NCBI GenBank assembly: GCA_902604355.1
Contig: CACKYN010000001.1
Span: forward strand, 1-64,000
Length of the DNA stretch: 64,000 nucleotides
Direction: 5' to 3'
Origin: an uncultured Pelagibacteraceae bacterium
GTDB lineage: Bacteria > Pseudomonadota > Alphaproteobacteria > Pelagibacterales > Pelagibacteraceae
How positions within the stretch are numbered: the first letter of the stretch is position 1; every line of letters starts with the position of its first letter. The position numbers were made by a program, and so were the translations under genes. Below, in pieces: positions 23,954 to 41,800 of this stretch. Below the pieces are notes generated by a model. It saw only the letters and a program-made list of their open reading frames with translations. It was not told the origin of the DNA and ran no database searches.

Positions 23954-24351
23954 TGGAAAAAAAATACCTTGCAAAAATTATTGCAAACGATCAAGAAGGT
24001 CTCCAAATGATATCTGCATGCAGTGCTGGTGCAAAGGTTAAGGTTGTTGATATAAAATATCTACCATCAAATAAAGTATTTTTGTTATTTATTGAAAGAA
24101 CAAAAGTTGAAACAGATAATGAAGATAAAAAAATCAACAGTATTTGTAGATTTGATTTTGTTGATAAAGTAAAATCAAAAAATATAGATCAATTAAATCA
24201 GGAGCTAGTTTTAGATTTAATTGGGATTGATTATTTGAAAAATAATACAGATTATGAAATAAACTTAATTTTTAATAATAATGCACACATTACTTTGACT
24301 ACGGAGACAATAGAAGTAAGACTTGAAGATCAAAATGAAAAAAAAGATTAA
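23953..24351 (+). CDS. DUF2948-like protein
   Basis: Small protein between murA and hisD, as in other alphaproteobacteria; KIIANDQEGLQMISACSAGAKVKVVDIKYLPSNKVF. Confidence 0.75.
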   Translation: MEKKYLAKIIANDQEGLQMISACSAGAKVKVVDIKYLPSNKVFLLFIERTKVETDNEDKKINSICRFDFVDKVKSKNIDQLNQELVLDLIGIDYLKNNTDYEINLIFNNNAHITLTTETIEVRLEDQNEKKD

Positions 24352-25643
24352 TGAAAATACTTAATAGCACTAATAATAATTTTGATAATTCATTAAACAA
24401 GCTACTTTTACAACGTAAAAAGAAAATCCAATCAAGTTTAATCTCTGTAACTAGTATTGTTAAAGATGTAAAAAAAAATGGTGATAAAGCTTTATTGAAA
24501 TATGAGAAAAGATTTAATCAAAACAAAGTAATTGTTCCAAGCCCCAAACAAATTAATATTTCAATAAAATCTTTAAATCAAAAAGTAAAAAAAGCAATTG
24601 ATGTTGCATACAACAGAATTTATAAATTTCATTCTCTTCAAAAATTTAAAAATATTTCCTATGTTGATAAATTTAAAAATAAACTTCAATATAAATATTT
24701 ACCATTAAATTCTGTTGCTATATATGTTCCTGGATCTGCAGCATCTTATCCATCGAGTGTTTTAATGAATGCTATCCCAGCAATTGTAGCTGGTGTTAAA
24801 AGATTAATAATGATTAACCCAGGTTTTAAAGGAAAGCAAAATCCAGCAGTTCTATATGCAGCTAGAAAATGTAAAATAAAAGAAATTTATTCTATAGGTG
24901 GTCCCTCTTCAGTTGCAGCCGCCGCTTATGGAACAAGAAAAATTAAAAAAGTAGATAAAATTGTTGGTCCTGGAAATACTTATGTGGCTGCAGCAAAAAA
25001 AGAAGTTTTTGGAGATGTTGGTATTGAAGGTATGACAGCCGGTCCTTCAGAGGTTACTATAGTTTGTGATAGATTTTCAAATCCTGAATGGGTTGCAAGT
25101 GATTTATTAGGCCAAGCAGAGCATGATAATCTTGCACAATGTATTTTAATCTCAAAAGATAAAAAATTATTACATAAAGTAAAAATTGAATTAATTAAAC
25201 AATTAAAAGAAATTCCTAGAGTATCTGTGGCTAGAAAGAGTTTAAATACCAATGGAATTTTAATGTATGTAAAATCTGATAAAAAAATAATTGAAATTGT
25301 AAATAAAATAGCACCAGAGCATTTGGAATTAAATATTAAAAATTATAAATCTTATGTTTCCAAAATTAGAAATGCTGGATCTATATGTTTAGGAAAATAT
25401 GCTGTGATGGCTATGACAGATTATAATGTTGGCTCCAATCATGTCTTACCAACAAATGGATCTGCAAAATATTCGAGTGGAATTAGTGTTAATGAATTTT
25501 ATAAAAGAATTTCTTACGTAAAACTATCAAAAAAGGGTATTGAAAGTCTTGGACCATCAGTTATAACACTTGCAAATTATGAAGGGTTAGTTGGACACGC
25601 TCAATCAGTAATAAAAAGAATTAAAAAAATTAGGAGAAAATAA
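24351..25643 (+). CDS. hisD: histidinol dehydrogenase
   Basis: [53 protein letters not shown]. Confidence 0.97.
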
Positions 25644-25645
25644 AT

Positions 25646-25861
25646 TTGTCAAAACAAGACTTACTGGAGTTTAAAGGTAAAGTAATTGATCTACTTCCTA
25701 ATGCTATGTTTAGAGTTAAGCTGGAAAATGGACATACGGTTACAGCTCATACAGCAGGTAAGTTAAGAAAAAATAGAATTAGAGTTCTTCAAGGTGATAA
25801 TGTGACTGTAGAAATGACACCTTATGACCTTACAAAAGGCAGAATAATCTTTAGAGGTTAA
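25646..25861 (+). CDS. infA: translation initiation factor IF-1 (TTG start)
   Basis: [57 protein letters not shown]. Confidence 0.96.
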
Positions 25862-25867
25862 AATCCT

Positions 25868-25942
25868 GCCTCGGTAGCTCAGGAGTAGAGCAGAGCCCTG
25901 AAAAGGCTTGTGTCGGAGGTGCGAATCCTTCCCGAGGCACCA
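25868..25942 (+). tRNA. tRNA-Phe(GAA)
   Basis: GCCTCGG acceptor, anticodon loop CTGAAAA, GTGCGAATCC T-arm, encoded CCA. Confidence 0.95.
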
Positions 25943-26024
25943 CTATCTACTTTTCGTCTTGAAATAATCTAAAAAAAAATTAACCTATTTCCAATAATAA
26001 ATAACAAAAGGACTAAGAAATAAA

Positions 26025-26237
26025 ATGAGTACACTAACTGGTAAAATTAAATGGTATAATGGAAAAAAAGGATATGGTTTTATTGAAAGAGACGATAAAG
26101 AAAAAGACGCCTTTGTTCATGCTTCTGCAGTAAAGGACGCTGGAATGAGATATCTTAATGAGGGTGACAAACTTGAATTTACATTAGAAGATGGTCCTAA
26201 AGGTCCTTCTGCAGTTAATTTAAAGAAAGTAGACTAA
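26025..26237 (+). CDS. cold-shock domain protein
   Basis: GKIKWYNGKKGYGFIERDDKEKDAFVHASAV (RNP1/RNP2). Confidence 0.96.
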   Translation: MSTLTGKIKWYNGKKGYGFIERDDKEKDAFVHASAVKDAGMRYLNEGDKLEFTLEDGPKGPSAVNLKKVD

Positions 26238-26253
26238 TTTTTTTAATATTTTT

Positions 26254-26291
26254 AAGGACGTCTTATCCTATTAGATTAGGTACACGTCCTT
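26254..26291 (+). terminator. stem-loop downstream of the cold-shock gene (terminator-like, weak U-tract)
   Basis: AAGGACGT...CCTATTAGATTAGG...ACGTCCTT nested inverted repeats starting 16 bp after the stop codon. Confidence 0.55.
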
Positions 26292-26397
26292 ATTTAATTA
26301 ATACTTGCGTTATTGTAGTTTTTGTCTAAAAGATTGCCCATGATTATAAATATTACATTAAGAGAGACTTTAAGAAGTACTCATAGAAATAGCTTAC

Positions 26398-26413
26398 ATA
26401 GCCTTTAGGCTAT
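26398..26413 (+). terminator. short hairpin ATAGCC-TTTA-GGCTAT
   Basis: Palindrome followed by TTATTTAT, between the cold-shock gene and tRNA-His. Confidence 0.4.
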
Positions 26414-26465
26414 TTATTTATAATATAATTTTAAATCTACAGAAAATAATATAAAATCAAGGGAT

Positions 26466-26540
26466 GCCTGGGTGGTGTAACGGTTAGCACGAAAGTTTGT
26501 GGAACTTTAAGTTTGAGTTCGATTCTCAGCCCGGGTACCA
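26466..26540 (+). tRNA. tRNA-His(GTG)
   Basis: GCCTGGG/CCCGGGT acceptor, anticodon arm AAAGT-TTGTGGA-ACTTT, GAGTTCGATTCTC T-arm, A73, encoded CCA. Confidence 0.95.
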
Positions 26541-26544
26541 AAAA

Positions 26545-27939
26545 ATGGATAAAGATAATAAATTAGTACCTGAATTACCTTCAGGATTTGAAGATCGTTG
26601 GGAAAATAAACTTCTTCTCAAAAAGAAGCTTTTAAAAGCTATTGAGAATAATTTTATTAAATTTGGAGCAGAACCTCTTGAAACCCCTTCGTTTGAAATT
26701 AGTAAAAATATTGGATCTTTTTTGGCAGAAGATGAGACTAATTCTATGTCTGATGTATTCTCATTTCAAGATGGTGAAAAAAGTATTACACTTCGATATG
26801 ATTTATCAAGCCCACTTGCAAGGTTTGTGGCTCAAAATAATCAACAACTACCATCAATATTCAAGCGGTATCAAATTCAAAATGTCTTTCGTAATGAAAA
26901 AGCTGGAAATGGCCGTTACAGAGAATTTATGCAAGCTGATTTTGATATTGTTGGTAATGTTGACCCATCACAGGCAAATGCAGAACTTTGTAATCTAATA
27001 TCAAATACATTATCCGACTGTGGTTTGAACAAAGATCAATTTACAATCAATGTAAGCAATAGAAAAATTGTGCAAGGTTTAATTAATGAATTAAAAATTT
27101 CTCAAGAAAAACAGATTAAGGTTATTAGGGCAATAGATAAATTAGATAAGCCAGGATTTGGTCTAAAGGGAGTTGAAGACTTATTAAAGAAAGAGAGAAA
27201 AGATCAAAGTGGTGCTGTTACTAAAGGAGCTGAACTATCTGATGATCAAGCATCAGAAATTTTAAATTTTTTAAAAATAAAAGATTTAAATGAATTAAAG
27301 CAAACTTTAAAAAATCCATTATCTCAGGAAGGCATAAGTGAATTAGAAAATGTATTTGAAATACTTGGATATGCGTCAAATCTAAATCAAGTTAAAACAA
27401 ACTTTACGATTGTGAGAGGATTAGCTTATTATTCAGATTTCATTGTTGAGACAAATCTAAATTTCAAAGTCACAAATAACAAAGGTAAGGAAGTTGATAT
27501 TGGGAGTATTTGTTCAGGAGGAGCCTATGCAAAACTCATATCAAGATTTAGAGGGGTTGATATTCCAGGTACAGGAATAAGTTTTGGAGTTGATAGACTG
27601 TTATTTGCTCTAATGCAATTAGATCAAATTAAGGTAGAGGACCAAAAACCAGTATTAGTATGTGTAATGGATAAAAAATATTTAAAAAATTATTATGAAT
27701 TAGTTGATCAACTAAGAGATAACAATATTAATGCTGAAATTTTTTTAGATAGTAAAAAAAACCTAGGTAAACAACTAACTTTTGCAAATAAAAGAGATTT
27801 ATCAGTTGCAATTATTTGTGGTGAAAATGAATTCAAAGAAAACACTGTCACCATAAAAAATCTAAAAGGTTTCAAGGGCAAAAATAATCAAACAATTCCA
27901 AAAGAAGATTTAATCAATGAAGTCAAAAAACTTATCTGA
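26545..27939 (+). CDS. hisS: histidyl-tRNA synthetase
   Basis: LRYDLSSPLARFVAQN, FRNEKAGNGRYREFMQADFDIVG, VRGLAYYSDFIVE, GISFGVDRLLFAL. Start trimmed to MDKDNKLVPELPSGF; the track start lies inside tRNA-His. Confidence 0.95.
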   Translation: MDKDNKLVPELPSGFEDRWENKLLLKKKLLKAIENNFIKFGAEPLETPSFEISKNIGSFLAEDETNSMSDVFSFQDGEKSITLRYDLSSPLARFVAQNNQQLPSIFKRYQIQNVFRNEKAGNGRYREFMQADFDIVGNVDPSQANAELCNLISNTLSDCGLNKDQFTINVSNRKIVQGLINELKISQEKQIKVIRAIDKLDKPGFGLKGVEDLLKKERKDQSGAVTKGAELSDDQASEILNFLKIKDLNELKQTLKNPLSQEGISELENVFEILGYASNLNQVKTNFTIVRGLAYYSDFIVETNLNFKVTNNKGKEVDIGSICSGGAYAKLISRFRGVDIPGTGISFGVDRLLFALMQLDQIKVEDQKPVLVCVMDKKYLKNYYELVDQLRDNNINAEIFLDSKKNLGKQLTFANKRDLSVAIICGENEFKENTVTIKNLKGFKGKNNQTIPKEDLINEVKKLI

Positions 27940-28972
27940 AAAAATCCTTAGATCAGTAAAATCTAGGGGTTTTAAATATATTGAGCTACCATCTGTAATA
28001 GAGGCAAATCATATTGTTCAAAGATCAGGAGAGAACTTCAGGAAATTCATGTTTTCTTTCACAGATATCAATGGAAAGGAATTATGTTTAAGACCTGACT
28101 TAACCATTGCTTCTTGTTTAAGATACTTAGAGGGAAATTTAAAAGGTAAAGAGAAAATTTTTTATAGTGGCCAAGCTTATCGAAAGGTTGAAAGCAAAAA
28201 AGATAAAATTATTAGAAACCAAATTGGATTTGAAATTTTAGGCTCTAAAAATGAAAAAAAAGATGATAACGAAATCATTACCGCGTCATTAAAAATACTT
28301 CAAGATTTTAAATTTTCATCAGGCACGTTAACCATTGGAAACATCGAGATATTTAATTTACTTATATCAAAATTAGATGTCCCCAAAAGATGGAAGTTAC
28401 GTTTATCAAGACATTTTTGGAGAAAAGAGTATTTTAAAGACTTGCTAAAACGATTAGAGACAAACGCAGATATTGATCCAACAATAGTGGAAGTTGACAA
28501 AAAACGATATCTGAATTTACTCAAAGAAAATCCAGAAACTATGATTGCTGGAAGATCTGTTGGCGAAATCTTAAAAAGATTTGATGCAAAGATTAAAGAT
28601 CCACGACAAGCAAATAGAGGTAAAAAAGTATCTAAAATTATTAATTCTTTTTTAAAGATTAAGTGCCCCATCAATAAAGCTGCAGAGGTATTAAATAATT
28701 TTTTTAAAACTAATAGAATTAATTTAGCTGTGGATCAAAAATATTTTCCAATCTCACATAATAAAATTTCTAAACTTAATGTAGTTTTTGATGCATCTTT
28801 TGGAAGGCAACAAGAATATTATACAGGATTGGTTTTCAAGATTGATATTAAATCTAAATCAAAGAATATTAGTATTATTAGTGGTGGGCGTTATGATAAG
28901 CTCATATCTGACTTAGGATCAAAAAACCAAGTTGCAGCTGTGGGCGCAGCGCTTAACCTAAATTTCCAATGA
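27917..28972 (+). CDS. hisZ: ATP phosphoribosyltransferase regulatory subunit
   Basis: HisRS-like paralog, LRPDLTIASCLRYLEG, YYTGLVFKI, ISGGRYDKLISDLG; same cluster as hisG. Confidence 0.85.
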   Translation: MKSKNLSEKILRSVKSRGFKYIELPSVIEANHIVQRSGENFRKFMFSFTDINGKELCLRPDLTIASCLRYLEGNLKGKEKIFYSGQAYRKVESKKDKIIRNQIGFEILGSKNEKKDDNEIITASLKILQDFKFSSGTLTIGNIEIFNLLISKLDVPKRWKLRLSRHFWRKEYFKDLLKRLETNADIDPTIVEVDKKRYLNLLKENPETMIAGRSVGEILKRFDAKIKDPRQANRGKKVSKIINSFLKIKCPINKAAEVLNNFFKTNRINLAVDQKYFPISHNKISKLNVVFDASFGRQQEYYTGLVFKIDIKSKSKNISIISGGRYDKLISDLGSKNQVAAVGAALNLNFQ

Positions 28973-29817
28973 TAATCTGGCTAGCTTCATATCCCAAAAG
29001 TGGAAATACTTGGTTAAGATCATTATTATCTAGCTATTATTTTTCTAGAAACGGTGAATTTAATTTTGAATTACTTAAAAAAATTGATCAGTTTCCAAGT
29101 GTGAATTATTTTAAGGATGACAAAGATTTATATTTAAAACCTGAAGACACTGCAGAAAAATGGCTAGATAAGCAAGCCGAAATAAATAGAGAAAAAAAAT
29201 TACGATTATTCAAAACTCATAATGCAATCTGCACAATAAACGGCAACAGATTCACAGATCCAAAAAATACTTTAGGTGGAATTTATATAGTTAGAGACCC
29301 TAGAAATGTTGTTACTTCACTGGCAAACCACTATCAGATAACAATTGATGAGGCTTATGAGTTTATGAAAGATAGTAAAAGAGCAATTATTGAAAAAAAA
29401 GGTAATAGATATTTAGGTTTTACGGCTTTATTTTCATGGGATTTCCATATCGATAGCTGGCTAAGTTATGAAAATTTTCCAATTTTAGTTATCCGATATG
29501 AAGATTTACAATCTGAAACTTTTCAAACTTTAAAAAAAGTAGTTAGTTTTATTAAAGATATATCAAAAAGTAATGAAAATTTTAATCGATCTAAAGCAAA
29601 AGAAGCTATCAAATCTTGTGAATTTGAAAAATTAAAAAAAATGGAAGAAAAAAAAGGGTTTCAGGAAGCAGTATTTAAAAAAGATAAATTAGAAAGAATT
29701 AAGTTTTTTAATTTAGGTAAAGAAAATAATTATAAAAATTTACTAAATACAAATTTAATAATGCAAATGAACGAACTTTATAAAAACAAATTATTGAAAT
29801 TTAATTATGAATTATAA
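28969..29817 (+). CDS. sulfotransferase-domain protein
   Basis: 5'-PSB loop SYPKSGNTWLRSLL, 3'-PB motif YIVRDPRNVVTSLANHY, IRYEDLQ. Confidence 0.9.
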   Translation: MIIWLASYPKSGNTWLRSLLSSYYFSRNGEFNFELLKKIDQFPSVNYFKDDKDLYLKPEDTAEKWLDKQAEINREKKLRLFKTHNAICTINGNRFTDPKNTLGGIYIVRDPRNVVTSLANHYQITIDEAYEFMKDSKRAIIEKKGNRYLGFTALFSWDFHIDSWLSYENFPILVIRYEDLQSETFQTLKKVVSFIKDISKSNENFNRSKAKEAIKSCEFEKLKKMEEKKGFQEAVFKKDKLERIKFFNLGKENNYKNLLNTNLIMQMNELYKNKLLKFNYEL

Positions 29818-30499
29818 TATCAATATTGGAATTCCTAGCAAGGGAAGGCTTAGGAAAGATGTTTTAAATATTTTTAAAAAAAATAAATTAAAACTTATCT
29901 CAGAGAGAGGAGACAGAGATTTGTTTGGCTCAATAAGTGGAAGACCAAATATTCAAGTAATTTATTTACATGCTCGTCAAATAATTGAAAGACTATCTGA
30001 TAAATCTCTAGATATTGGTTTTTCAGGTTTAGATTTATTGAAAGAAAGTGAAATTAATATTCAAAAAAATATTAAAATATATAAAAAATATCCATATGGT
30101 CGTGCCTCTTTAGTTGTAGCTATCCCTGATGATTTTATTGATATTTATTCAATGTCTGATTTAGAGGAAGTAGCATTTGAATTTAAGGAAAAGAAAAATA
30201 GAAGAATAAGAGTTTCTACTAAATATCCAAATCTTACACGGGAATTTTTTTATAATAAGGGTGTTACTCAATTTTCAATTGTAAAATCAATTGGATCAAC
30301 AGAAATAGAGCCTTTTACTGGAGGTTGTGAGTTGATAACTGATATCACTAGTACTGGGTCAACTCTTGCAGCAAACAATTTACGTATAATAAATGATGGC
30401 TATATTTTAAAATCTGAGCTTTGCATGTTCATCGGAAAATCTTCTTTTAAAAATAAAGGAGTAAAAAAAATAGCAAAGTTACTTTCTACGAAGTATTAA
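29807..30499 (+). CDS. hisG: ATP phosphoribosyltransferase, short form
   Basis: IGIPSKGRLRKDVLNIF, DIGFSGLDLL, EPFTGGCELITDITSTGSTLAANNLRII. Confidence 0.94.
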   Translation: MNYNINIGIPSKGRLRKDVLNIFKKNKLKLISERGDRDLFGSISGRPNIQVIYLHARQIIERLSDKSLDIGFSGLDLLKESEINIQKNIKIYKKYPYGRASLVVAIPDDFIDIYSMSDLEEVAFEFKEKKNRRIRVSTKYPNLTREFFYNKGVTQFSIVKSIGSTEIEPFTGGCELITDITSTGSTLAANNLRIINDGYILKSELCMFIGKSSFKNKGVKKIAKLLSTKY

Positions 30500-30613
30500 G
30501 TCTTTCCAATATATTAAAATAATCTTAATAATATCTAGATTTCTAGCTATCGCATATCCTGCAATCACAATAATAAGAGCAAATAATATTTTTAATATAA
30601 GAGATAATTCCAT
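30479..30613 (-). CDS. 44-aa putative single-TM peptide
   Basis: Manual minus-strand translation MELSLILKILFALIIVIAGYAIARNLDIIKIILIYWKDLILRRK*; overlaps the hisG 3' end by 21 nt. Not in ORF track. Confidence 0.4.
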   Translation of the reverse strand: MELSLILKILFALIIVIAGYAIARNLDIIKIILIYWKDLILRRK

Positions 30614-30677
30614 TAAGTTACATTAAATATTTAAATATATTAATCGATTTTTTACTATAAAATAAGAGTTAAGAATC

Positions 30678-31775
30678 ATGGATCTTATTTTAATAGTATT
30701 ACTTGTTTTATTGCTTGGGGGAGTTTTGGCAATTCTTTACCTAATTTTAAGACCAAAACTCAAAGACGAAAATGACAATAAAGAAGCAGAAGAAATAGCT
30801 AATTTAAAAACAGAGATTGTTACGCTTAAAGATACCTTAAATAATACTATTAATACCTCTCTTGGTACAATGTCGACGTCGTTTAATAATCTCTCAACTG
30901 GTGTAACAAAAGATATGACCGAAGCTTTAACTAAAGTTGATGAAAAGGTTGGAAACTTTAACCAGCAGGTACAATTACTTAATCAAAGCCAGGAGAGTAT
31001 TACTAAAATTTTAGCTGGAGTTAAAAAATATGGAACGCTTGCTGAATTTAGCTTAGATGCACTAATCAAAGATTTGTTGCCAGCCTCTCAATTCATGACG
31101 AATGTAAAAATGAAAGAGGATACAAGTGAAAATGTTGAATTTGCAATTAAACTTCAAGGAGATGTTTTAGTTCCAGTTGATAGTCATTTTCCAGTAGAAA
31201 AATTTAAAGCAATTACGGATGGTCATGATGCGGACGACAAAAGGACTGTTGCTGATGCAAGAGCGAAATTAGCAACCGCCTTTAAAGCCAAAGCTAAAAG
31301 TGTTAATGAAAAATATATTGTTCCTCCAAAAACTACAGATTTTGCAATCGTATATGCACCAACTGAAAGTCTATATAAAGAATTAACTGAATACCAAGAT
31401 CCAAGCACAAAAGAGTTATTAACTCAAGAATTAATGAAAAAATATAAAGTTGTAATCTGCGGACCTAATACTTTATCTGCTTATTTGCAATCTCTTCACA
31501 TGGGATTTCAATCATTGAAAGTTCAAAAAGGTGCAACAGAAATTTATAATCATTTGAAAACGATAAGTACTAGATTCAGTAAACATTTTGACAATATAAT
31601 TTCTCTTAGAAAAAAATTAGAAGAAGCAATGGTAGTTGTTGATAAGTTTGGTACAGATGCTAGATCAATTACTAGAACACTGGAAAGCATTAAAGATCCA
31701 GAACAACTTGAAAAGGCTGTTCAAACTGAAAATGTAGAAAAATTTATTGATCGTTCAAAACAAGCAAATAATTAA
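30678..31775 (+). CDS. rmuC: RmuC-family DNA recombination protein
   Basis: N-terminal TM, coiled coil, then RmuC core (VPVDSHFPVEKFKAI, IVYAPTESLYKEL, VVICGPNTLSAYLQSL). Confidence 0.88.
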   Translation: MDLILIVLLVLLLGGVLAILYLILRPKLKDENDNKEAEEIANLKTEIVTLKDTLNNTINTSLGTMSTSFNNLSTGVTKDMTEALTKVDEKVGNFNQQVQLLNQSQESITKILAGVKKYGTLAEFSLDALIKDLLPASQFMTNVKMKEDTSENVEFAIKLQGDVLVPVDSHFPVEKFKAITDGHDADDKRTVADARAKLATAFKAKAKSVNEKYIVPPKTTDFAIVYAPTESLYKELTEYQDPSTKELLTQELMKKYKVVICGPNTLSAYLQSLHMGFQSLKVQKGATEIYNHLKTISTRFSKHFDNIISLRKKLEEAMVVVDKFGTDARSITRTLESIKDPEQLEKAVQTENVEKFIDRSKQANN

Positions 31776-31812
31776 TTTCAATTTTTCTCCAATAAAGAAT
31801 ATAAGAAATCTG

Positions 31813-32499
31813 ATGCAGTGGAATAAGAAATATGATTATCCAAAATCCTCAAGAGCTACAGTAGATGGTATAAGAAGATATTTATTAGGTGAAGCGAAAC
31901 TACCAAGCGTTACCTCAATCTTAGATGTCACAAGATCAGAGGAGGATAAGGCAGCATTAGCCAATTGGCGTGAGAGAACAGGCTATAAAGAAGCTGAAGC
32001 AATTACAAAAGCAGCTAGTAGCAGGGGTTCACAGATGCATAACTACTTAGAGTCCTATCTTCTAGGTAGAGAAAACCTTAGTTTTTTTGATGACAATGAA
32101 CAATATAAATTAATGGCAAAAGAAATTATCGAAAAAGGATTAAAAAATAGATTGGAAGAAATTTGGGGAGTTGAATGCACACTTTACTATCCAGATAAAT
32201 ATGCTGGTACTGCAGATTGTGTTGGAGTTTATGAGGGACGAGAAACAATAATAGATTTTAAACAGAGCAATAAACCAAAAAAATCAGAATATATCGACTC
32301 ATGGCTTCTACAAACGAGCGCATATTCTTTGGCTCATAATATTGTGTATAACTCTAATATCACTTCTTGTGTAATTCTAGTTTGCACAGTAGATAAATTA
32401 TTCCAAGAATTTAAAATTCAAAGTCACGATTTAGTTGTTTATCAGAACTTATTTTTGGGAAGATTAAAAAAATTTAATGAGCTTTCAAATTTAGCTTAA
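31813..32499 (+). CDS. PD-(D/E)XK nuclease, MGME1/phage exonuclease-like
   Basis: SRGSQMHNYLESYL, YAGTADCVGVYEGRETIIDFKQSNKPK active-site pattern, YSLAHN. Start trimmed to MQWNKKYDYPKSS. Confidence 0.75.
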   Translation: MQWNKKYDYPKSSRATVDGIRRYLLGEAKLPSVTSILDVTRSEEDKAALANWRERTGYKEAEAITKAASSRGSQMHNYLESYLLGRENLSFFDDNEQYKLMAKEIIEKGLKNRLEEIWGVECTLYYPDKYAGTADCVGVYEGRETIIDFKQSNKPKKSEYIDSWLLQTSAYSLAHNIVYNSNITSCVILVCTVDKLFQEFKIQSHDLVVYQNLFLGRLKKFNELSNLA

Positions 32500-32507
32500 A
32501 TATTAAA

Positions 32508-33944
32508 ATGGATAAAATAGTAATATACGATACTGAAACTACAAATTCGACTATATGGGGAAGTATTATTGAGGTTGGTGCTGTAGTTGTGGATAAAAAT
32601 CTTAAGGAAATTGGAAAGTTAAATATTAGAGGCAGAATGCCAGAAGGTGAAGTACCTAGTGCAAAAGCACTTCTAGTAAACTCCACAAGTATTGATTTAC
32701 TTACCAAAGGCAACTATTCACATTATGATTTTCTAGGAGCTGTCGAAAATTTTTTTTCAAAAGCAGCTCCATCTTTATTTATGGGTTGGAGCAATCTTAA
32801 TTTTGATCGCAGAATGTTTCACTTTAATTTTTTTAAAGGAAACAGATATCCTTATATAACCCACTCTTCACCCAATCAAGAGTCTGATGGTTTACATGTT
32901 GCAAGAGCTGCTCAAACTATAAACTCTAAAACTTTAAAAACTGAATTAACACCTGCAGGAAATGAAAGTTTGGCTTTAGAAGCACTTGCACGACAACAAG
33001 GATTTGATACCACACAACAACACACTGCCTATCATGACGCTCTCACAAGTTTAAAAATTCTTAGAATCATAAAAGATCAACATAAAGATAATTGGGAAAA
33101 ATTTTTAAGTACATCAACAAAAAGTAGTGTTGAATCACTTTTAAAAAGTGAAGGGATTTATTCTATTTTTGAAAATGTAAAAGGACGAAACATGATGTAT
33201 CTAGTTTGTACACTTCATCCAGAACATTGTTTTCATCCTACCTATGCGTCTTGGGGATACGTTTGGGACCTGAGAAGAGATCCAGAACCTTATTTAAATT
33301 TGTCAGTTAATGAGCTTAAAGCAAATTTAAATAAAATTAGTCCAAAAGCACTTAGAGTACTAAAAACTAATAAGGCTCCAGTAGTATTAGATAAAAAATT
33401 TGCATTAAAGGAAAAAGCATATTCAGAATTAGATTTAGAAACAATTATTAAGAGAGCAAAGTTAGTAAAAGTTAGTGAAAATTTTTGTAAAAACATTCAA
33501 ATTATTAATAGGGAAGCTGCTGAGGAGAAAGCCCAAACTCAAACACAAGAAGATTTACTTCCAGAAGAGACGTTGTATGAAAAATTTATTCCCAATAAAG
33601 ATACTGCATTATTTAAAACGTGGCATAGTTCATCTTGGGAAGATAAACTAAGATTATTAGATAAGTTTCAAGACAAAAGATGCAGTTGGTTTGGACAAAA
33701 AATAATCTACCAAGAGGCACCTCATATTTTACCTCCTGATTTATACAAAAATATTAAGAGTGAAATTGCCAGGAGAATATTGAGCAAAAACAAGGAAAAG
33801 TGGCAAACAATTGGCATGGCCTATACCGAAATTGATACATTGAGAGATCAAGCCTCTAATCGAGATGATCAGGATGAGTTGAAAAAATTAGACGAAATTA
33901 ATGAATTTATAATGTCAATTGAAAAAAAATATGAAATTGCCTAG
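32508..33944 (+). CDS. sbcB: exodeoxyribonuclease I-like DEDD exonuclease
   Basis: IVIYDTETT, MGWSNLNFDRRMFHFNFF, AYHDALTSLKILRII; ExoI-like C-terminal region. Confidence 0.82.
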   Translation: MDKIVIYDTETTNSTIWGSIIEVGAVVVDKNLKEIGKLNIRGRMPEGEVPSAKALLVNSTSIDLLTKGNYSHYDFLGAVENFFSKAAPSLFMGWSNLNFDRRMFHFNFFKGNRYPYITHSSPNQESDGLHVARAAQTINSKTLKTELTPAGNESLALEALARQQGFDTTQQHTAYHDALTSLKILRIIKDQHKDNWEKFLSTSTKSSVESLLKSEGIYSIFENVKGRNMMYLVCTLHPEHCFHPTYASWGYVWDLRRDPEPYLNLSVNELKANLNKISPKALRVLKTNKAPVVLDKKFALKEKAYSELDLETIIKRAKLVKVSENFCKNIQIINREAAEEKAQTQTQEDLLPEETLYEKFIPNKDTALFKTWHSSSWEDKLRLLDKFQDKRCSWFGQKIIYQEAPHILPPDLYKNIKSEIARRILSKNKEKWQTIGMAYTEIDTLRDQASNRDDQDELKKLDEINEFIMSIEKKYEIA

Positions 33945-33978
33945 TTGACTTTGAGGCTCCAATTTATAGAAAGGATTT

Positions 33979-34296
33979 ATGCTTATAGATTTTAAAGACG
34001 AAGATTTTGACAGTAAAATTAAAAATGAAGACGTATCAGTAATACAATTTTCAGCATCGTGGTGTGGTCCATGTAAAGCCCTTAAGCCAGTGATGGATAA
34101 ATTGTCAGACGAATACAAAGATAAAGCAAATTTTTACATTACTGATATTGAAGATGCTGGAATTAATACAGGTTCAGCAGCGGGGATCAGGGGAGTTCCA
34201 ACAGTGATTATATATAAAAAAGGACAAGAAGTTAGCCGTAAAGTTGGAGGAGTTCCAGAAGGTCATATGAAAGAATTCCTAGACGAAAATATCTAG
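33979..34296 (+). CDS. trxA: thioredoxin
   Basis: FSASWCGPCKALKPVMDKL, GIRGVPTVIIYKKGQEV. Confidence 0.93.
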   Translation: MLIDFKDEDFDSKIKNEDVSVIQFSASWCGPCKALKPVMDKLSDEYKDKANFYITDIEDAGINTGSAAGIRGVPTVIIYKKGQEVSRKVGGVPEGHMKEFLDENI

Positions 34297-35561
34297 TTTA
34301 AATTTAACACCTCACCAGCAAGATACAAAGATCCAGTAATCAAAATTATATCATTTTCCTTGACTGGAATTGACTTAATAGCATCAATAATACCTTCTTT
34401 ATATTTAACGTTTTCAAAGCTATTAAGTTTGCTTTTTAATACTTTTCCTTTGATCGAGTTTGGCTGATTGGGGATATCTATAGTGGTCAAGGAGGAAATA
34501 TTTTTAAAGTAACTCATATAATCGTTATGATCTTTATTGTTCATCATACCTAGAATAATATGTTTATTGCAATTTAAACTTTCCAAATATTCATTTAAAA
34601 CTTTTGCTCCTAAAGGGTTATGAGATCCATCAACAAGTAATTTGTTATTTTTTACCAAGTCTTTAAGTTTACCAGAACATATTTCTTGAAGTCGTGCGAT
34701 ACTTTTAATTTTAGTAATTCCATCTTTAATATGTTTTTCACTAACTTTTAAATGGTTGATTGATCTTAAGGTTGCTATTGCTGTTGAAATATTTTCAAGC
34801 TGAAATTGACCTTTAACGCTTGGAGTCGGAAGTTTAATACCACCATTTTTATCCTCATAAAAAATAAAGCCATTTTCATTTGATGAATAATTATAATCTT
34901 CATTAAAAAAATATTTTTTTGAAGAATTTTTTAAAATTGAACTTTTAATTTCATTAACAATTTCAGATGAACTTTGCTTGGCAATAATAATATTAGAATT
35001 TACTAAAGTTGAGGTTTTTTCAAATATTATTTTTTTAGTTGTTTGTTGATTTTCAGGTAACCAATCTAAATGATCCAAACCAATAGAAGTTACAATGCTC
35101 GCTAAATTATCTTTTAGTATATTTGTTGCATCAAATCGGTGAAATAACCCTGTTTCAATTAGGTTAATATTTTCAGGGTATTTTGAGGCATTATAAAAGT
35201 AGGCTGCAGTCAATATTTCAAAAAAAGTTATTGGTTCATTGTTATTTGCTTCTTCAATTTCCTCAAAAAGAACTACAAGATCATCATCATTTAATTCTTC
35301 ATTATTAAATACAAATCTTTCGTTTATTCTTTTGATATGAGGGCTGGTGTAAATATTACACTTAATATTTGTCTCTTTTAAAATTGCGAATAAAGCCTGA
35401 ATAGTTGAATATTTACCGTTTGTACCAACAACTGAAATAGCTTTTAATTTATCCTGTGGGTTTCCAAGTGTTTTACAGAGTTTTTTTATTCTATTTAAAC
35501 TTAGATCTATCTCTTTAGGATGCAACTTTTGTAAGCGATTGACTATCTTCTGCAGTTTCAT
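34293..35561 (-). CDS. folC: folylpolyglutamate synthase / dihydrofolate synthase
   Basis: VVGTNGKYSTIQALFAIL, YTSPHIKRINERF, TSIGLDHLDWL, DGSHNPLGAKVL. Confidence 0.94.
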   Translation of the reverse strand: MKLQKIVNRLQKLHPKEIDLSLNRIKKLCKTLGNPQDKLKAISVVGTNGKYSTIQALFAILKETNIKCNIYTSPHIKRINERFVFNNEELNDDDLVVLFEEIEEANNNEPITFFEILTAAYFYNASKYPENINLIETGLFHRFDATNILKDNLASIVTSIGLDHLDWLPENQQTTKKIIFEKTSTLVNSNIIIAKQSSSEIVNEIKSSILKNSSKKYFFNEDYNYSSNENGFIFYEDKNGGIKLPTPSVKGQFQLENISTAIATLRSINHLKVSEKHIKDGITKIKSIARLQEICSGKLKDLVKNNKLLVDGSHNPLGAKVLNEYLESLNCNKHIILGMMNNKDHNDYMSYFKNISSLTTIDIPNQPNSIKGKVLKSKLNSFENVKYKEGIIDAIKSIPVKENDIILITGSLYLAGEVLNLN

Positions 35562-36444
35562 TTTGTTCAGAAGTTATAACAGAATTTCTCTTTAACAATA
35601 TTGATAATAGAGTTCCAATTTTAGAGGCTAGTTCTTTTCGTTCAACTATTAGGTCAACAAATCCAGTTTTTTCAACATACTCACTCTTTTGAAAACCTTC
35701 AGGCAACTCCTCTTTAACGGTACCTTGAATAACCCTAGCCCCTGCAAATGCAATTAATGCACCAGGTTCTGCAATATTGATATCACCAAGCATTGCGTAA
35801 GAGGCAGTTATTCCTCCAGCAGTAGGATCCGTAATACAAACCAAATAAGGTAAACCATTTTTTTTTAATTCATTAATTGCTAAAGTAGTTCTCGTCATCT
35901 GAGATAATGAAATTAAACTTTCCATCATTCTCATTCCGCCACCAGCACTAATACATAAAAAAGGAGTTTTATTTTCTATCGCATGTTGAATTCCATATAA
36001 AAAAGCCTCACCTTCTGCAGCAGCCATTGAGGCACCCAAAAAATCAAAATCAGATGCAACTGCAGTAATTTTAATATTGTCGATAGTGCCTGAGGCAACC
36101 ATCATACCACACTCTAACCCGGTTTTTTTTCGTGCACTTTTTAATCTGTCTTTGTATGATTTAGAGTCGGTCCAATTTAATGGATCATCTTTTGGAATAG
36201 GAGTTTTAAATATTTCATAATTATTTTTACCAAATAAAATATCAAATCTCTGTTTAGGTTTTATTCTATGGTGTTTATTACATTCAGGACAAACCCATAA
36301 ATTACTTTCTAAATCTTTTTTAAGTATTGGACCTATGCAACATGAAGTCCAATCACTGTTTGCAATATCTTCTTTTGATGCTCTTTCTTTAATAGCTGTT
36401 TTAATCTTTTCACCAGCTTTTATTATTTTTGTAATCCAGTTCAT
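35515..36444 (-). CDS. accD: acetyl-CoA carboxylase carboxyltransferase subunit beta
   Basis: Zn ribbon CC..CPEC, GASMAAAEGEAFLYGIQHA, CISAGGGMRMMESL, DPTAGGITASYAMLGDI. Confidence 0.96.
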   Translation of the reverse strand: MNWITKIIKAGEKIKTAIKERASKEDIANSDWTSCCIGPILKKDLESNLWVCPECNKHHRIKPKQRFDILFGKNNYEIFKTPIPKDDPLNWTDSKSYKDRLKSARKKTGLECGMMVASGTIDNIKITAVASDFDFLGASMAAAEGEAFLYGIQHAIENKTPFLCISAGGGMRMMESLISLSQMTRTTLAINELKKNGLPYLVCITDPTAGGITASYAMLGDINIAEPGALIAFAGARVIQGTVKEELPEGFQKSEYVEKTGFVDLIVERKELASKIGTLLSILLKRNSVITSEQNETAEDSQSLTKVAS

Positions 36445-37241
36445 TTAATTTTATTTTTTAACCTTCTAACAACATTAGTAACATTTGTGACAGCATTTTG
36501 TCTTTTTTTAATGGATTTAGTTATTTCCTTACAAATCGCACTTCCTACAACCAAACCATCGGCTTTTTTGAGTGATTTAATAGTTTTTTCAGTGATTCCA
36601 AATCCAATTACAACATTTTTTGATTTGTTTTGATTTTTAATTTTGAAATAATTTTCTAAAATTTTTTTAGGGGAAACTTTTAATTTTCCTCCTGTAGTTG
36701 ATAGCATACTTATATAGTAAATCATATCATGAGAATCTTTTATAATTTTTTTTAATCTTATATTTGATGTAGTTGGAGAAACTAATTGCACAAAGTTGAT
36801 ACCTTTTCTTTTACATTTTTTAGAAAAACTTTTATTTTCTGGATAGGGGAGGTCAACTATAATTAAACCATCTATTTTTGAACTTTTACATTTTTTAAGA
36901 AATTTATTTTCATCATATTGATAAATCATGTTGTAATAGCCCATTAAAATAATAGGGGTTGTTTTTTTTGATAACTTAAATGCCTTAGCGATTGCAAAAA
37001 CATCATTTATTTTAATTCCATTTTTAATGGCGCGATAAGCACTTGTTTGTATTTGACCACCATCTGCAATAGGAGTGTTATGTGGGAAACCCAACTCACA
37101 TATATCAGCGTGAGCTGATATTGACTTAAGAATATCTAAAGATTTTTTTTTAGTATTATCACCAGCAACCGTATAAGTTAACAATGCTGGTCTTTTAGCA
37201 TTTCTTGCTTTTTTAAAAACTTCGTTAATTAATGAGACCAT
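36441..37241 (-). CDS. trpA: tryptophan synthase alpha chain
   Basis: ELGFPHNTPIADGGQIQTSAYRAI, GLIIVDLPYPE, VVIGFGI. Confidence 0.94.
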   Translation of the reverse strand: MVSLINEVFKKARNAKRPALLTYTVAGDNTKKKSLDILKSISAHADICELGFPHNTPIADGGQIQTSAYRAIKNGIKINDVFAIAKAFKLSKKTTPIILMGYYNMIYQYDENKFLKKCKSSKIDGLIIVDLPYPENKSFSKKCKRKGINFVQLVSPTTSNIRLKKIIKDSHDMIYYISMLSTTGGKLKVSPKKILENYFKIKNQNKSKNVVIGFGITEKTIKSLKKADGLVVGSAICKEITKSIKKRQNAVTNVTNVVRRLKNKIK

Positions 37242-38470
37242 TAATTCTTACCTAATCTCTCTTTTAAAATGTCCCTATCTTTTTTCGCGTCTCCACAAGA
37301 ATTTACAATTATAATTGTATCTTTGCTAAGTCTTGGAGCAATTTTAATTGCTTCAGCGAATGCATGGCTAGGCTCTAAACTTGGATTTAAGTTTTCAAAC
37401 TTGGTTACCATAACGTGTGCATTCAAAGCTTCTTCATCAGTTGCAAAAGTATATCTTGCTCTTCTAGTATCTTTTAAAAAACAATGAATAGGACTAACTC
37501 CAGGATAATCTAGTCCTGCACTTATAGATTCTGTTTCATTTATTTGACCTTCATTATCTTGGCAAACATAAGATGCAGCACCATGTAAAACTCCAATTTT
37601 AGCATTTCTGCTTAACGGGGCCGCATGAAGCTTTGATTTTTTAGGCCCACCCGCCTCAACTCCAATCAGCTCAATTTGTTTTTTGTTAAAATCTATAAAT
37701 TCACTCCAGAAGCCATAAGCTGAACTTCCACCACCCACACAATTAATTAATTTTATTTTTTTTGGGATCTTTTTAAATTCAGATTTTAATTGTACCTTTA
37801 ATTCTCTAGAGATTTGGGCAGTACTCCAACCACATATTTTAACAAATATATTTGGACCTACGGTACTTCCAACACACATATGAGTATTATCACAATTTGA
37901 TACCCAATATCTCATGCATTCACTAACTGCATCTACCAAAGTCTGACTACCAGAATAGACAGGAACAATCTCTGCTCCATTTTTTTTCATTGCATCACAA
38001 TTTGGTTTTTGCCTTTTTATATCCTTAGCACCCATAAAAATTTTACATTTCAAGCCAAACTTTTTCGCTGCCATACTTAGCATTTTCCCAGCATACCCCG
38101 CACCTGTGTCACCAACGATATATTTTTTACCCATAGCTTTGCAAAGGAGAGCATGCACAGTGGCGTTATATATTTTGTGAGCACCACCATTGGCTTCAGA
38201 AACAACTTTTGCCCATATTTGAGCACCACCTAGATGGCTAGTCAAATTTTCCAGTTTTACAAATGAAGTTGGAGATCCAATATAATTTTTAAAATAATAG
38301 TCTCTCTTCTTAATAAATTTTTTATTTTTTCTTAATTTTTTAAATTCTTCTGTCAAATCTTCCACAGGTTTTTTTAGAGTTTCAGGAATAAAGCTTCCTC
38401 CAAATTTTCCTCCCCAAAAACCAAATTGGTCATGTTGGTCAATTAATGGAATACCTTTTTTAAGTTTCAT
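37241..38470 (-). CDS. trpB: tryptophan synthase beta chain
   Basis: GAHKIYNATVHALLCKAMGKKYIVGDTGAGYAG, CVGGGSSAYGFWSEF, HGAASYVCQDNEGQI. Confidence 0.96.
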   Translation of the reverse strand: MKLKKGIPLIDQHDQFGFWGGKFGGSFIPETLKKPVEDLTEEFKKLRKNKKFIKKRDYYFKNYIGSPTSFVKLENLTSHLGGAQIWAKVVSEANGGAHKIYNATVHALLCKAMGKKYIVGDTGAGYAGKMLSMAAKKFGLKCKIFMGAKDIKRQKPNCDAMKKNGAEIVPVYSGSQTLVDAVSECMRYWVSNCDNTHMCVGSTVGPNIFVKICGWSTAQISRELKVQLKSEFKKIPKKIKLINCVGGGSSAYGFWSEFIDFNKKQIELIGVEAGGPKKSKLHAAPLSRNAKIGVLHGAASYVCQDNEGQINETESISAGLDYPGVSPIHCFLKDTRRARYTFATDEEALNAHVMVTKFENLNPSLEPSHAFAEAIKIAPRLSKDTIIIVNSCGDAKKDRDILKERLGKN

Positions 38471-39089
38471 TTTTAATTTGTTTTACTTTATTTAAAAAAA
38501 TTTCTATTTTTGATTGATCTTTTAATCCAGAAGTTTCTAAGCCTCCAGACAAATCTATAAAATCTGCTATTTTTCCATAATTTATTAGATCATCGTTGAA
38601 TTTAATATTACCAGCAATCATTAATTTTTTATCAATTTTTAGGTTTTTAATTAGATCATGATTAAATCCTTCACTTTTTTCATAACCCTTACTATCAAAT
38701 AAATAAATATCAGTTACCTCATTAAAATCTTTATATTTTTCTAAGTCTGATTTGTCTTTAATGGTAAATGCAGTGATAATTTTCTTATTGTAGGTATTTT
38801 TAATAGAACTTATTTGTTCTGGAGTGCAATCATATAATTGGTAATAGTCAAAAGGTAGATTTTTAATTTTTTCTAATATCTCTTCATTAGGTTTAACTAA
38901 TACAGCGACATACTGAGAGTTATTTTTATCTATACTTAATAACTTTTCTAATTTGTTAAACTCAACATATCTTGGACTTTTTTGATAGTTGCAAATAAAA
39001 CCAATAAATTTTGGTGGATATGGATGATTAACAATAAAGCTTAATGTATCTAGATCAGAAACTCCACAGATCTTACAGCCTTTAATCAT
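38460..39089 (-). CDS. trpF: phosphoribosylanthranilate isomerase (divergent)
   Basis: KICGVSDLDTLSFI, GFICNYQKSPRYV, MIAGNIKF, DLSGGLETSGLKD; between trpB and pyrF. Confidence 0.88.
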   Translation of the reverse strand: MIKGCKICGVSDLDTLSFIVNHPYPPKFIGFICNYQKSPRYVEFNKLEKLLSIDKNNSQYVAVLVKPNEEILEKIKNLPFDYYQLYDCTPEQISSIKNTYNKKIITAFTIKDKSDLEKYKDFNEVTDIYLFDSKGYEKSEGFNHDLIKNLKIDKKLMIAGNIKFNDDLINYGKIADFIDLSGGLETSGLKDQSKIEIFLNKVKQIKNET

Positions 39090-39778
39090 TGACTTAAATG
39101 ATCAATCAATTTCTTCACATTATGTTTAATGTTACCTTCGATAAGTGATCTACCCATTACAACCCCTGAAACTTTATTTTTAAAAGCATCTTTTGGAGTC
39201 ATTACTCTTGCTTGATCGTTTGATTTATCTCCAGGTAATCTAATGCCAGGAGTTATTATCAAAAAATTTTTAAATTTTTTTCTTATCATTTTAGACTCTT
39301 GTGGAGAGCATATAATTCCATCACAACCTGACTTTTTAATAAGCTCAGCTTGTTTTAAAACTAGTTGTTGAACATTTTTTGTATGACCGATCTCTTTCAA
39401 AGATTTGTTATTCAAGCTTGTTAATATAGTAACACCTAAAACTTTTAAGTTTTTGTTAATTTTTTTTGCATGCTTTTTTACAGCTTTTAGCATATCAAGG
39501 CCACCATTTGCATGGACTGTAATATATTTACATTTTTTTAAATCTTTTAAACTATCTATTGCTGAGAGTGCGGTTTGTGGAATATCATTTATTTTTAAAT
39601 CTAACCAAAAATCTCTTTTAAATTTTTCAAGAAACTTTCTTCCATTTTTTGAGTAAAAAAGTTGTAATCCAAATTTTGGTATTATCTTTAATTTATTATT
39701 TTTTGTTTGAATGATAATGTTTTTAGCTTTTCTTATATTTGATGCATCGCACGCAACAAATATGATTTTATTCTTCAT
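39086..39778 (-). CDS. pyrF: orotidine-5'-phosphate decarboxylase
   Basis: DLKINDIPQTALSAI, VHANGGLDML, ITPGIRLPGDKSNDQARVMTP, GVVMGRSL. Confidence 0.93.
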   Translation of the reverse strand: MKNKIIFVACDASNIRKAKNIIIQTKNNKLKIIPKFGLQLFYSKNGRKFLEKFKRDFWLDLKINDIPQTALSAIDSLKDLKKCKYITVHANGGLDMLKAVKKHAKKINKNLKVLGVTILTSLNNKSLKEIGHTKNVQQLVLKQAELIKKSGCDGIICSPQESKMIRKKFKNFLIITPGIRLPGDKSNDQARVMTPKDAFKNKVSGVVMGRSLIEGNIKHNVKKLIDHLSQ

Positions 39779-40058
39779 TATTTAATTTTTTAAACAAGTC
39801 CTTAGACATTTTAAAGTGAATAGTTTTTTTTTCAGGAGTATTAACCTTTTCCCCTGTTTTAGGATTTCTTGATATCCTGGCTTTTTGAATATTTGTTGAA
39901 AATACCCCAAAACCCCTAAGTTCTACTCGATCTCCTCTTCTCAGAGCCCTCTTTATTTCGTTTAGAATTATGTCGCTAAATTTTTCTAAGTCTTTTTTTA
40001 GAAAATTAGGATAATTGTTTGAAAGTTGTCTTAAAAGCTTTGATTTTACAATAGCCAA
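39768..40058 (-). CDS. ihfB: integration host factor beta subunit
   Basis: HU/IHF fold GDRVELRGFGVFSTNIQKARISRNPKTGEKV; next to rpsA. Confidence 0.92.
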   Translation of the reverse strand: MAIVKSKLLRQLSNNYPNFLKKDLEKFSDIILNEIKRALRRGDRVELRGFGVFSTNIQKARISRNPKTGEKVNTPEKKTIHFKMSKDLFKKLNNEE

Positions 40059-40075
40059 TTTAAATCTTCTTAATT

Positions 40076-41800
40076 TTAATTATCTTCTTCTTTTTTCTTC
40101 AAGTCTTCTGATAGAGATGAAAATGGTAAGTTTTTACCAGATCCCTCTGATCCATATTTTTCTAAAGCTTCTTTTTTTTCAATTTCCTCAAGTAATTTTA
40201 TGCTAAGTACTACTTTTCTCCTTTTAAAGTCTAGATCAGCAATTGCACAATCAAGTTTTTCCCCACCGGTCCATCTACTAGGCCTTGCATCAGCTGCATT
40301 TATTGCAATTGCAGATTTCTTTATTTGAAAGTCCATCTCACAACCCTCAGGCCTTACCATTAAACCTTTGTTGTCAGTTGATACAACTTTTACTGTGATA
40401 GTTTGATTTTTATTTTTATCTTTGAAGAAATCGAAAGGATCTGCTTGAGTTTGCTTTAAACCAACTCTAATTTTCTGATCAGCAGTTTTAATTTCTAGTA
40501 CCATTACTTTAATTTTGTCTCCCTTTTTATATTTTGCTAATTCCTCTTCTCCGTTGTTAAAATATGTTAAGTCATTACAGTGAAGAAAAGCATCAATGTC
40601 CAAGTTATCTATTTTTACAAACAATGAGTACTCATTTTTGTTCACAATTTCACCTTCAACAATGGTGTTAACAGGAAACTTTTTCTCAAATGTTTCAAAA
40701 GGGTTTTCTTGAGTCAATCTATGTGAAATAGCAACTCTTCTTTTATCCTTATCTATTTCAGTTATAACACAATCTATTTCATCACCAATTTTAAAAATTT
40801 TTTTTGCAGATAAATTTTTCTTTGTCCAGCTTAGCTCACTAGAATGTAGAAGAGTAGTCAGGCCAGGCTCTAATTCACAGAAAGCTCCAAATTCCATCAG
40901 TTTTACAACTTTAACCTTATATATCTTATTTAGCTCATAATTTTCTATATGTTCAAAAGGGTCTGGTGACAATTGTTTCACTGAACACCCAACTTGTAAT
41001 TTTTCTTTATCAACACTTATAACTTTTAAATCATGTTTTTCACCAATATTAAATACCTCATCAGGATGATTAACTCTTGAGTAAGAAATTTCTTGAAGAT
41101 GAACTAGCACATCTAATTCTCCGTTCACATTGAAAAAGCACCCAAAAGAGCTATAACCTTTTACTTCAGCTCCTTTGATAATGTCACCAACTTTAAATTT
41201 ATCAATTATTTTAGCTTTATCCTCTTTTTTAAATGATGAAATAATTTCTCTTCTTGAGACGCATGCGTTACCACGGATCTTGTCTAGTTTTATAAGTGCA
41301 AATTTTTGTGGCTCATTCATCAGGTGACTAATATCTTTTAGAGGTTTATCTGATATTTGGCTGCCAGGCAGGAACATCAGAGAACCTGTATCAATATGCT
41401 CAACGATACAACCTCCTTTACATTTAGAAGTAATTTTACCCATAATAGGTTCATTTTTTTCATAAGCCTCGACTAATTTATCCCAACCTTTTATCTTTTG
41501 CGCTTTAGATGCAGAAACTAAAACTTCACCATGTTTATCCTCAATTTTTTCCAATAAGACAGATATGGTCTCGCCAATTTTAATTTTCTCAGAAAGGCCC
41601 ATATTTTTTAACTCATTGATATCTAAAACAGGCTCAGATTTTAGTCCTTCTACAAAAAGAAAAACAAATTTTTCTGTAATTTTGTTTATTTTACCCTCTA
41701 TTATTTTTCCTTCTTCTATCTGAATTTTTGAGAGCTGACTGTTAAGTAATTTTTCAAATTCTTGAGAGGCCGGATTTGATAAATCTTTATAAATTTCCAT
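40076..41800 (-). CDS. rpsA: 30S ribosomal protein S1
   Basis: Repeated S1 domains (YSSFGCFFNVNGELDVLVHLQEISY, LMEFGAFCELEPGLTTLLHSSELSW). Start trimmed to MEIYKDLSNPA at 41800. Confidence 0.95.
   Translation of the reverse strand: MEIYKDLSNPASQEFEKLLNSQLSKIQIEEGKIIEGKINKITEKFVFLFVEGLKSEPVLDINELKNMGLSEKIKIGETISVLLEKIEDKHGEVLVSASKAQKIKGWDKLVEAYEKNEPIMGKITSKCKGGCIVEHIDTGSLMFLPGSQISDKPLKDISHLMNEPQKFALIKLDKIRGNACVSRREIISSFKKEDKAKIIDKFKVGDIIKGAEVKGYSSFGCFFNVNGELDVLVHLQEISYSRVNHPDEVFNIGEKHDLKVISVDKEKLQVGCSVKQLSPDPFEHIENYELNKIYKVKVVKLMEFGAFCELEPGLTTLLHSSELSWTKKNLSAKKIFKIGDEIDCVITEIDKDKRRVAISHRLTQENPFETFEKKFPVNTIVEGEIVNKNEYSLFVKIDNLDIDAFLHCNDLTYFNNGEEELAKYKKGDKIKVMVLEIKTADQKIRVGLKQTQADPFDFFKDKNKNQTITVKVVSTDNKGLMVRPEGCEMDFQIKKSAIAINAADARPSRWTGGEKLDCAIADLDFKRRKVVLSIKLLEEIEKKEALEKYGSEGSGKNLPFSSLSEDLKKKEEDN

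Follow-up and report, generated by a model that had tools for sequence, protein, structure and literature searches.

A phage-family MGME1-like nuclease gene and its ExoI-like neighbour are exchanged as a pair among Pelagibacter lineages

Three consecutive genes of a Pelagibacter genome appear to encode DNA-processing enzymes, which raises the question of whether they act as one unit and, if so, in what process. The genes lie in a 64,000-nucleotide stretch of contig CACKYN010000001.1 (hereafter the window), and a first-pass annotation made from the sequence had read them as a possible module for end processing, recombination or defence against phage. An open reading frame (ORF) listing of the window confirmed three ORFs on the forward strand between positions 30678 and 33944, and profile and structure searches matched all three to the families originally named: RmuC, PD-(D/E)XK nuclease and ExoI-like DEDD exonuclease. 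The order in the window is hisG, then rmuC, the PD-(D/E)XK gene (hereafter the middle gene) and ExoI, then trxA-folC-accD-trp. In our locus survey hisG (29807–30499) and the thioredoxin gene trxA (33979–34296), also on the forward strand, form the conserved left and right borders. A gene for a sulfotransferase-like protein, at 28969–29817, separates hisZ from hisG and is present in 16 of 111 surveyed loci, including the window. Promoter and terminator scans gave signal no higher than in shuffled sequences.

The middle gene (31813–32499, forward strand) encodes a 228-residue protein whose profile match to the phage family phrog_298, labelled exonuclease, has an E-value of 1.4e-47. Its ATG start at 31813 agrees better with the phage homologues than does an alternative TTG at 31747, which would create an overlap with rmuC. 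The protein also matches human MGME1 (phmmer, E = 3e-10), and scores 16.1 bits against Pfam PDDEXK_1, below the 22-bit cut-off. When an AlphaFold (AF2) model (mean pLDDT 92.8) was searched against known folds using Foldseek, the nine best matches were all human MGME1 (PDB 5zyt–5zyw and 8xa9; E down to 2.5e-12, TM 0.69–0.83), followed by RecE at 1e-4 and, more weakly, Cas4. The GTAD...IIDFK pattern that had been likened to phage and mitochondrial exonucleases proved to be part of a complete MGME1-like active site: His76, Glu121, Asp135, Asp148, Lys150, Gln167 and Tyr171 correspond, with similar spacing, to MGME1 His180, Glu223, Asp238, Asp251, Lys253, Gln271 and Tyr275, whose roles we take from PMC6237815, and all are invariant across 34 aligned homologues. 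The codon for His76, the counterpart of the metal ligand His180 (PMC6237815), is at 32038–32040, and the stretch from Asp135 (GTAD) to Asp148 and Lys150 (IIDFK) at 32215–32262. The protein differs from MGME1, the human mitochondrial exonuclease, in being bacterial, only 24–26% identical, free of the mitochondrial N-terminal region and encoded beside ExoI. With Cas4 and RecB-type nucleases it shares the PD-(D/E)XK fold and weak profile matches, but the structural match is far weaker and the four-cysteine iron-sulphur cluster of Cas4 is not conserved, C191 being the sole invariant cysteine in the alignment; we thus rejected assignment as Cas4. The middle protein is predicted from its profile matches and modelled fold to be a PD-(D/E)XK exonuclease of the MGME1 type.

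The third gene (32508–33944, forward strand) encodes a 478-residue ExoI-like DEDDh 3'–5' exonuclease with a Pfam Exonuc_X-T_C match (E = 6e-16) and the ExoI C-terminal domain PF08411 (58.8 bits, cut-off 27). Residues D8, E10, D100, H172 and D177 correspond to D15, E17, D108, H181 and D186 of Escherichia coli exonuclease I (SbcB) and are invariant in 139 sequences. Although the catalytic residues, domain order and length are those of SbcB, overall identity is 20%, the score against the NCBI ExoI equivalog NF008746 is 93.3 of the 260 bits required, and the gene nearly always adjoins the MGME1-like gene in Pelagibacter; on its sequence we file the product as ExoI-like rather than as an ExoI equivalog. 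ExoI had been thought notable here as an enzyme best known from gammaproteobacteria, a view not borne out, as every one of the 11 genera sampled from the order has it, in 279 of 297 genomes. A search of 50,697 phage records returned no ExoI match, and on this ground we rejected its acquisition from phages.

The middle gene has a different history. It is carried by 183 of the 198 genomes of Pelagibacter, the genus of the window, among 297 genomes of the order searched, in which the only match outside Pelagibacter is a doubtful one in a fragmentary assembly. In a separate class-wide sample (357 genomes, 265 genera) it was found in Pelagibacter only, and the records that carry it are titled Pelagibacteraceae and Candidatus Pelagibacter. 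Genome G087, a 64% complete assembly from the other family, has a middle-gene match and also a 3.4-kb contig (L233, contig 25) with a Pelagibacter-like ExoI-trxA-folC; the ExoI on this contig is 86% identical to that of the window, and the match is probably contamination.

Full-length relatives of the middle gene, 38–48% identical, occur in marine viral contigs and in the pelagiphages HTVC023P and HTVC027P, and the phrog_298 exonucleases of these phages, cyanophages, PA5oct and 121Q are full-length homologues of its product. The phage copies differ in that none is paired with ExoI, for which the phage records hold no match, and the cellular copies form a clade of their own: a tree built from 56 proteins places all 30 of them on one side of a branch with support of 100/99, with phage sequences around them. 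Even the odd copies of G040, G082 and G159 lie inside this clade, which rules out repeated capture from phages. By sequence, a member of a phage family thus appears to have been domesticated once, in Pelagibacter, and we infer the direction from phage to host because the phage sequences are more diverse and the gene is missing from the sister genera. The sister genera have the order RmuC-ExoI-trxA and the other family, where examined, ExoI-RmuC-trxA, both without the middle gene; RmuC, ExoI and trxA are therefore the older neighbourhood of the order, into which the middle gene was later inserted.

Once formed, this arrangement has been largely kept. The compact RmuC-middle-ExoI order between hisG and trxA/folC is found in approximately 105 of 139 surveyed loci, picked mostly for carrying the middle gene, and 80 of 80 loci of a second collection, comprising the closest relatives, have RmuC-middle-ExoI. 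The neighbourhood is thus conserved, and the arrangement is not due to chance. However, the proposal of a three-gene module stands only in part. The RmuC protein (30678–31775, forward strand, 365 residues) is itself a clear family member (PF02646, E = 2.1e-49; 168.6 bits, cut-off 26), with an N-terminal membrane helix and coiled coil recognised by eye, and the family occurs in 8 of the 11 genera of the order. Yet RmuC has been exchanged, swapped for a different RmuC lineage or lost independently of the other two genes. Exchange of RmuC and of trxA is independent although both lie equally near, so that the middle nuclease and ExoI alone make up the unit, and RmuC is an ancient neighbour outside it. 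Our literature search found no paper joining Pelagibacter with RmuC.

The main new result is that exchange between lineages moves the middle gene together with ExoI, as a pair. Protein distances for the two are correlated at r = 0.91 in 82 genomes, and at 0.88 when flanking genes are allowed for; the corresponding values are 0.38 (partial 0.08) for RmuC and the middle gene, and 0.54 for ExoI and trxA. Just three of the 11 adjacent gene pairs stand out: HisZ-HisG (r = 0.89), TrpA-TrpB (0.88) and middle gene-ExoI (0.87). HisZ-HisG and TrpA-TrpB are obligate complexes, and the middle gene and ExoI show co-inheritance at their level, as expected of a two-subunit complex. We then counted discordance among informative genome pairs, in which one gene is at least 85% identical, a pair being discordant when the other gene is at most 65% identical. 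Only 1 of 1390 pairs (0.1%) was discordant for the middle gene and ExoI, compared with 585 of 1449 (40%) at the RmuC/middle-gene border and 589 of 1911 (31%) at the ExoI/trxA border. The middle gene falls into seven types, each with a single ExoI type, and the types match in 124 of 124 genomes. They stay matched where the genes have opposite orientations (G040, G082 and G159) and where another gene intervenes (G026, G046 and G170). When G013, G131 or G005 is compared with the window, DNA identity is 80–90% over most of rmuC, falls to approximately 50–70% in the two nuclease genes and rises again at trxA.

This paired exchange suggests that the two proteins work as one enzyme, and they probably form a physical complex. 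A caution is that it could be a recombination artefact: if alleles are too diverged to recombine and crossovers occur only in the conserved flanks, both genes are carried along together. Under this main null, the two would be ordinary housekeeping exonucleases acting independently, linked by adjacency and by the flank-limited recombination of diverged alleles. The genes indeed lie side by side on one strand in 120 of 126 loci, some with a 4-base overlap, alleles of different types are too dissimilar in DNA sequence to cross over within the pair, and distinct allele classes are also found in hisS, trxA and folC of the same region. Within a type, G066 combines an ExoI of 77% identity with a middle gene of 95–96%, which shows that similar alleles do cross over inside the pair. 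However, RmuC and the middle gene, which overlap or lie tens of bases apart, and ExoI and trxA have the same geometry, yet 30–40% of their informative pairs are broken, and the linkage of the middle gene to ExoI survives inversion or an intervening gene. We regard independent action as unlikely.

What the pair might do is suggested by the nucleases that Pelagibacter has lost. ExoVII was found above cut-off in 0 of 198 Pelagibacter genomes and is present in genera g2–g4 and in the other family. AddA and MutS were each found in 0 of 27 Pelagibacter genomes tested, with positive controls, which agrees with the reported absence of RecBCD, RecF and MutSL from SAR11 (PMC12374537) and rules out a role for the middle gene and ExoI in MutSL mismatch repair.

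RecJ is present in 34 of 198 Pelagibacter genomes, and most sister genera keep it. In all 20 genomes examined, recJ lies downstream of a glpX-like gene, in Pelagibacter as in other genera; for these genomes lateral regain is thus ruled out, and RecJ is ancestral and was lost repeatedly within Pelagibacter from the glpX-recJ site. Retention varies with the type of nuclease pair, RecJ being found in 0 of 47 genomes with type 1, 1 of 38 with type 2 and 27 of approximately 38 with the remaining types. The Fisher probability of 3e-17 is inflated by kinship; independent pairs gave 7:0 (p ~0.016) on a tree of flanking genes, which themselves recombine and do not amount to a species tree. These data are suggestive of RecJ loss chiefly in genomes that carry pair type 1 or 2, but this loss may simply follow lineage, which counts against replacement of RecJ by the pair. 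Titles and abstracts in the literature we searched showed nothing on RecJ loss in SAR11.

We establish here the families, active sites and fold of the nucleases, a single origin of the middle gene, its paired exchange with ExoI, and the loss of ExoVII together with the recurrent losses of RecJ; the physical complex, cleavage polarity, substrates and cellular role are what we infer for the pair, as follows. A Pelagibacter ancestor would have captured the MGME1-like gene once from a phage. Trimming of 5' ends, flaps or overhangs would fall to its product and digestion from 3' ends to ExoI, and the pair would do the work of RecJ and ExoVII, namely clearance of single-stranded DNA (ssDNA), end trimming in RecOR-type recombination and disposal of linear fragments, in a cell whose minimal set of recombination genes lacks RecBCD/AddAB, RecF, MutSL and ExoVII. 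RmuC, the older neighbour, may have a related but separable role. RecJ and ExoVII are the proposed functional counterparts of the middle nuclease as ssDNA exonucleases alongside ExoI, but the middle nuclease is of an unrelated family, and Pelagibacter has lost ExoVII in all genomes and RecJ in most. We give roughly even odds (about 0.5) to this reading of the middle nuclease and ExoI as a co-adapted two-part ssDNA exonuclease that covers the roles of RecJ and ExoVII. MGME1 does not act strictly in the 5' to 3' direction, which counts against 5' trimming. A few genomes (G103, G184 and G202) have neither the middle gene nor RecJ, their locus holding another nuclease that is Cas4/RecB-like, and genera g5 and g6 lack both ExoVII and the middle gene, most of them keeping RecJ; both cases count against cover for RecJ and ExoVII.

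SAR11 bacteria recombine at very high rates despite having no RecBCD, RecF or mismatch repair (PMC12374537). The middle nuclease and ExoI are a concrete, testable candidate for DNA-end processing in this group and, if the reading is right, a clear example of a nuclease of phage origin turned core gene in a streamlined bacterium. Mitochondria use the same nuclease family, through MGME1, in DNA maintenance, a parallel to Pelagibacter. A bolder version, that a heteromeric, bidirectional ssDNA exonuclease of a new kind, in which ExoI binds a domesticated MGME1-family nuclease from phage, replaced RecJ and ExoVII and shapes the exceptionally high recombination of the most abundant ocean bacteria, is put forward as speculative.

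The suggestion of an anti-phage module drew on the same genes, and a captured phage nuclease that is now directed at phage or incoming DNA, sits at a hot spot for defence and owes its allelic diversity to an arms race would fit both the phage derivation of the middle gene and the strong divergence of its allele types. Approximately 25 of the 139 loci are rearranged, with canonical RmuC in place of the window type, DUF2130, S24-peptidase-like, WGR, Cas4-like or TM0106-like (PD-(D/E)XK/helicase) proteins. Known defence genes occur in some: the DISARM genes DrmA/DrmB (G122), MzaB/MzaC (G159), type IIG restriction-modification (G103), cytosine methylases (G096, G114 and G046, of which G114 also has a recognised type II restriction enzyme) and a PbeC-like gene (G026), and the TM0106-like helicase-nuclease can be counted with them. 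ExoI and canonical RmuC also match the PADLOC models of reverse transcriptase-associated SbcB and RmuC. However, no reverse transcriptase was recognised on reading the ORFs of window positions 24000–41000 or among the scanned accessory genes, and we rejected a defence reverse transcriptase (DRT) system on this basis. Moreover, the usual arrangement is found in nearly all Pelagibacter, among housekeeping neighbours and with no sensor or effector gene, known defence genes being confined to rearranged loci; nearly all of the order has ExoI and RmuC is common in it, and many recombination hot spots hold defence genes with no functional link to their surroundings. End processing or recombination suits the gene losses better, and we consider a defence role unlikely. 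Literature searches pairing SAR11 with DISARM, or RmuC with SbcB and defence, found nothing relevant.

Two further observations concern these rearranged regions. The region between hisG and trxA is a defence-gene hot spot, though only in a minority of Pelagibacter (L221, L215, L218, L225, L238, L223 and L222). An unnamed, recurrent set of genes, encoding proteins of approximately 130, 160, 100 and 530 residues together with WGR and S24-peptidase-like proteins, surrounds a very divergent ExoI (22–27% identity) in G024, G040, G082, G103, G159 and G184 (L213–L220 and relatives). The approximately 530-residue protein has a HELSH metalloprotease-like motif, and the set is possibly a different system that uses ExoI.
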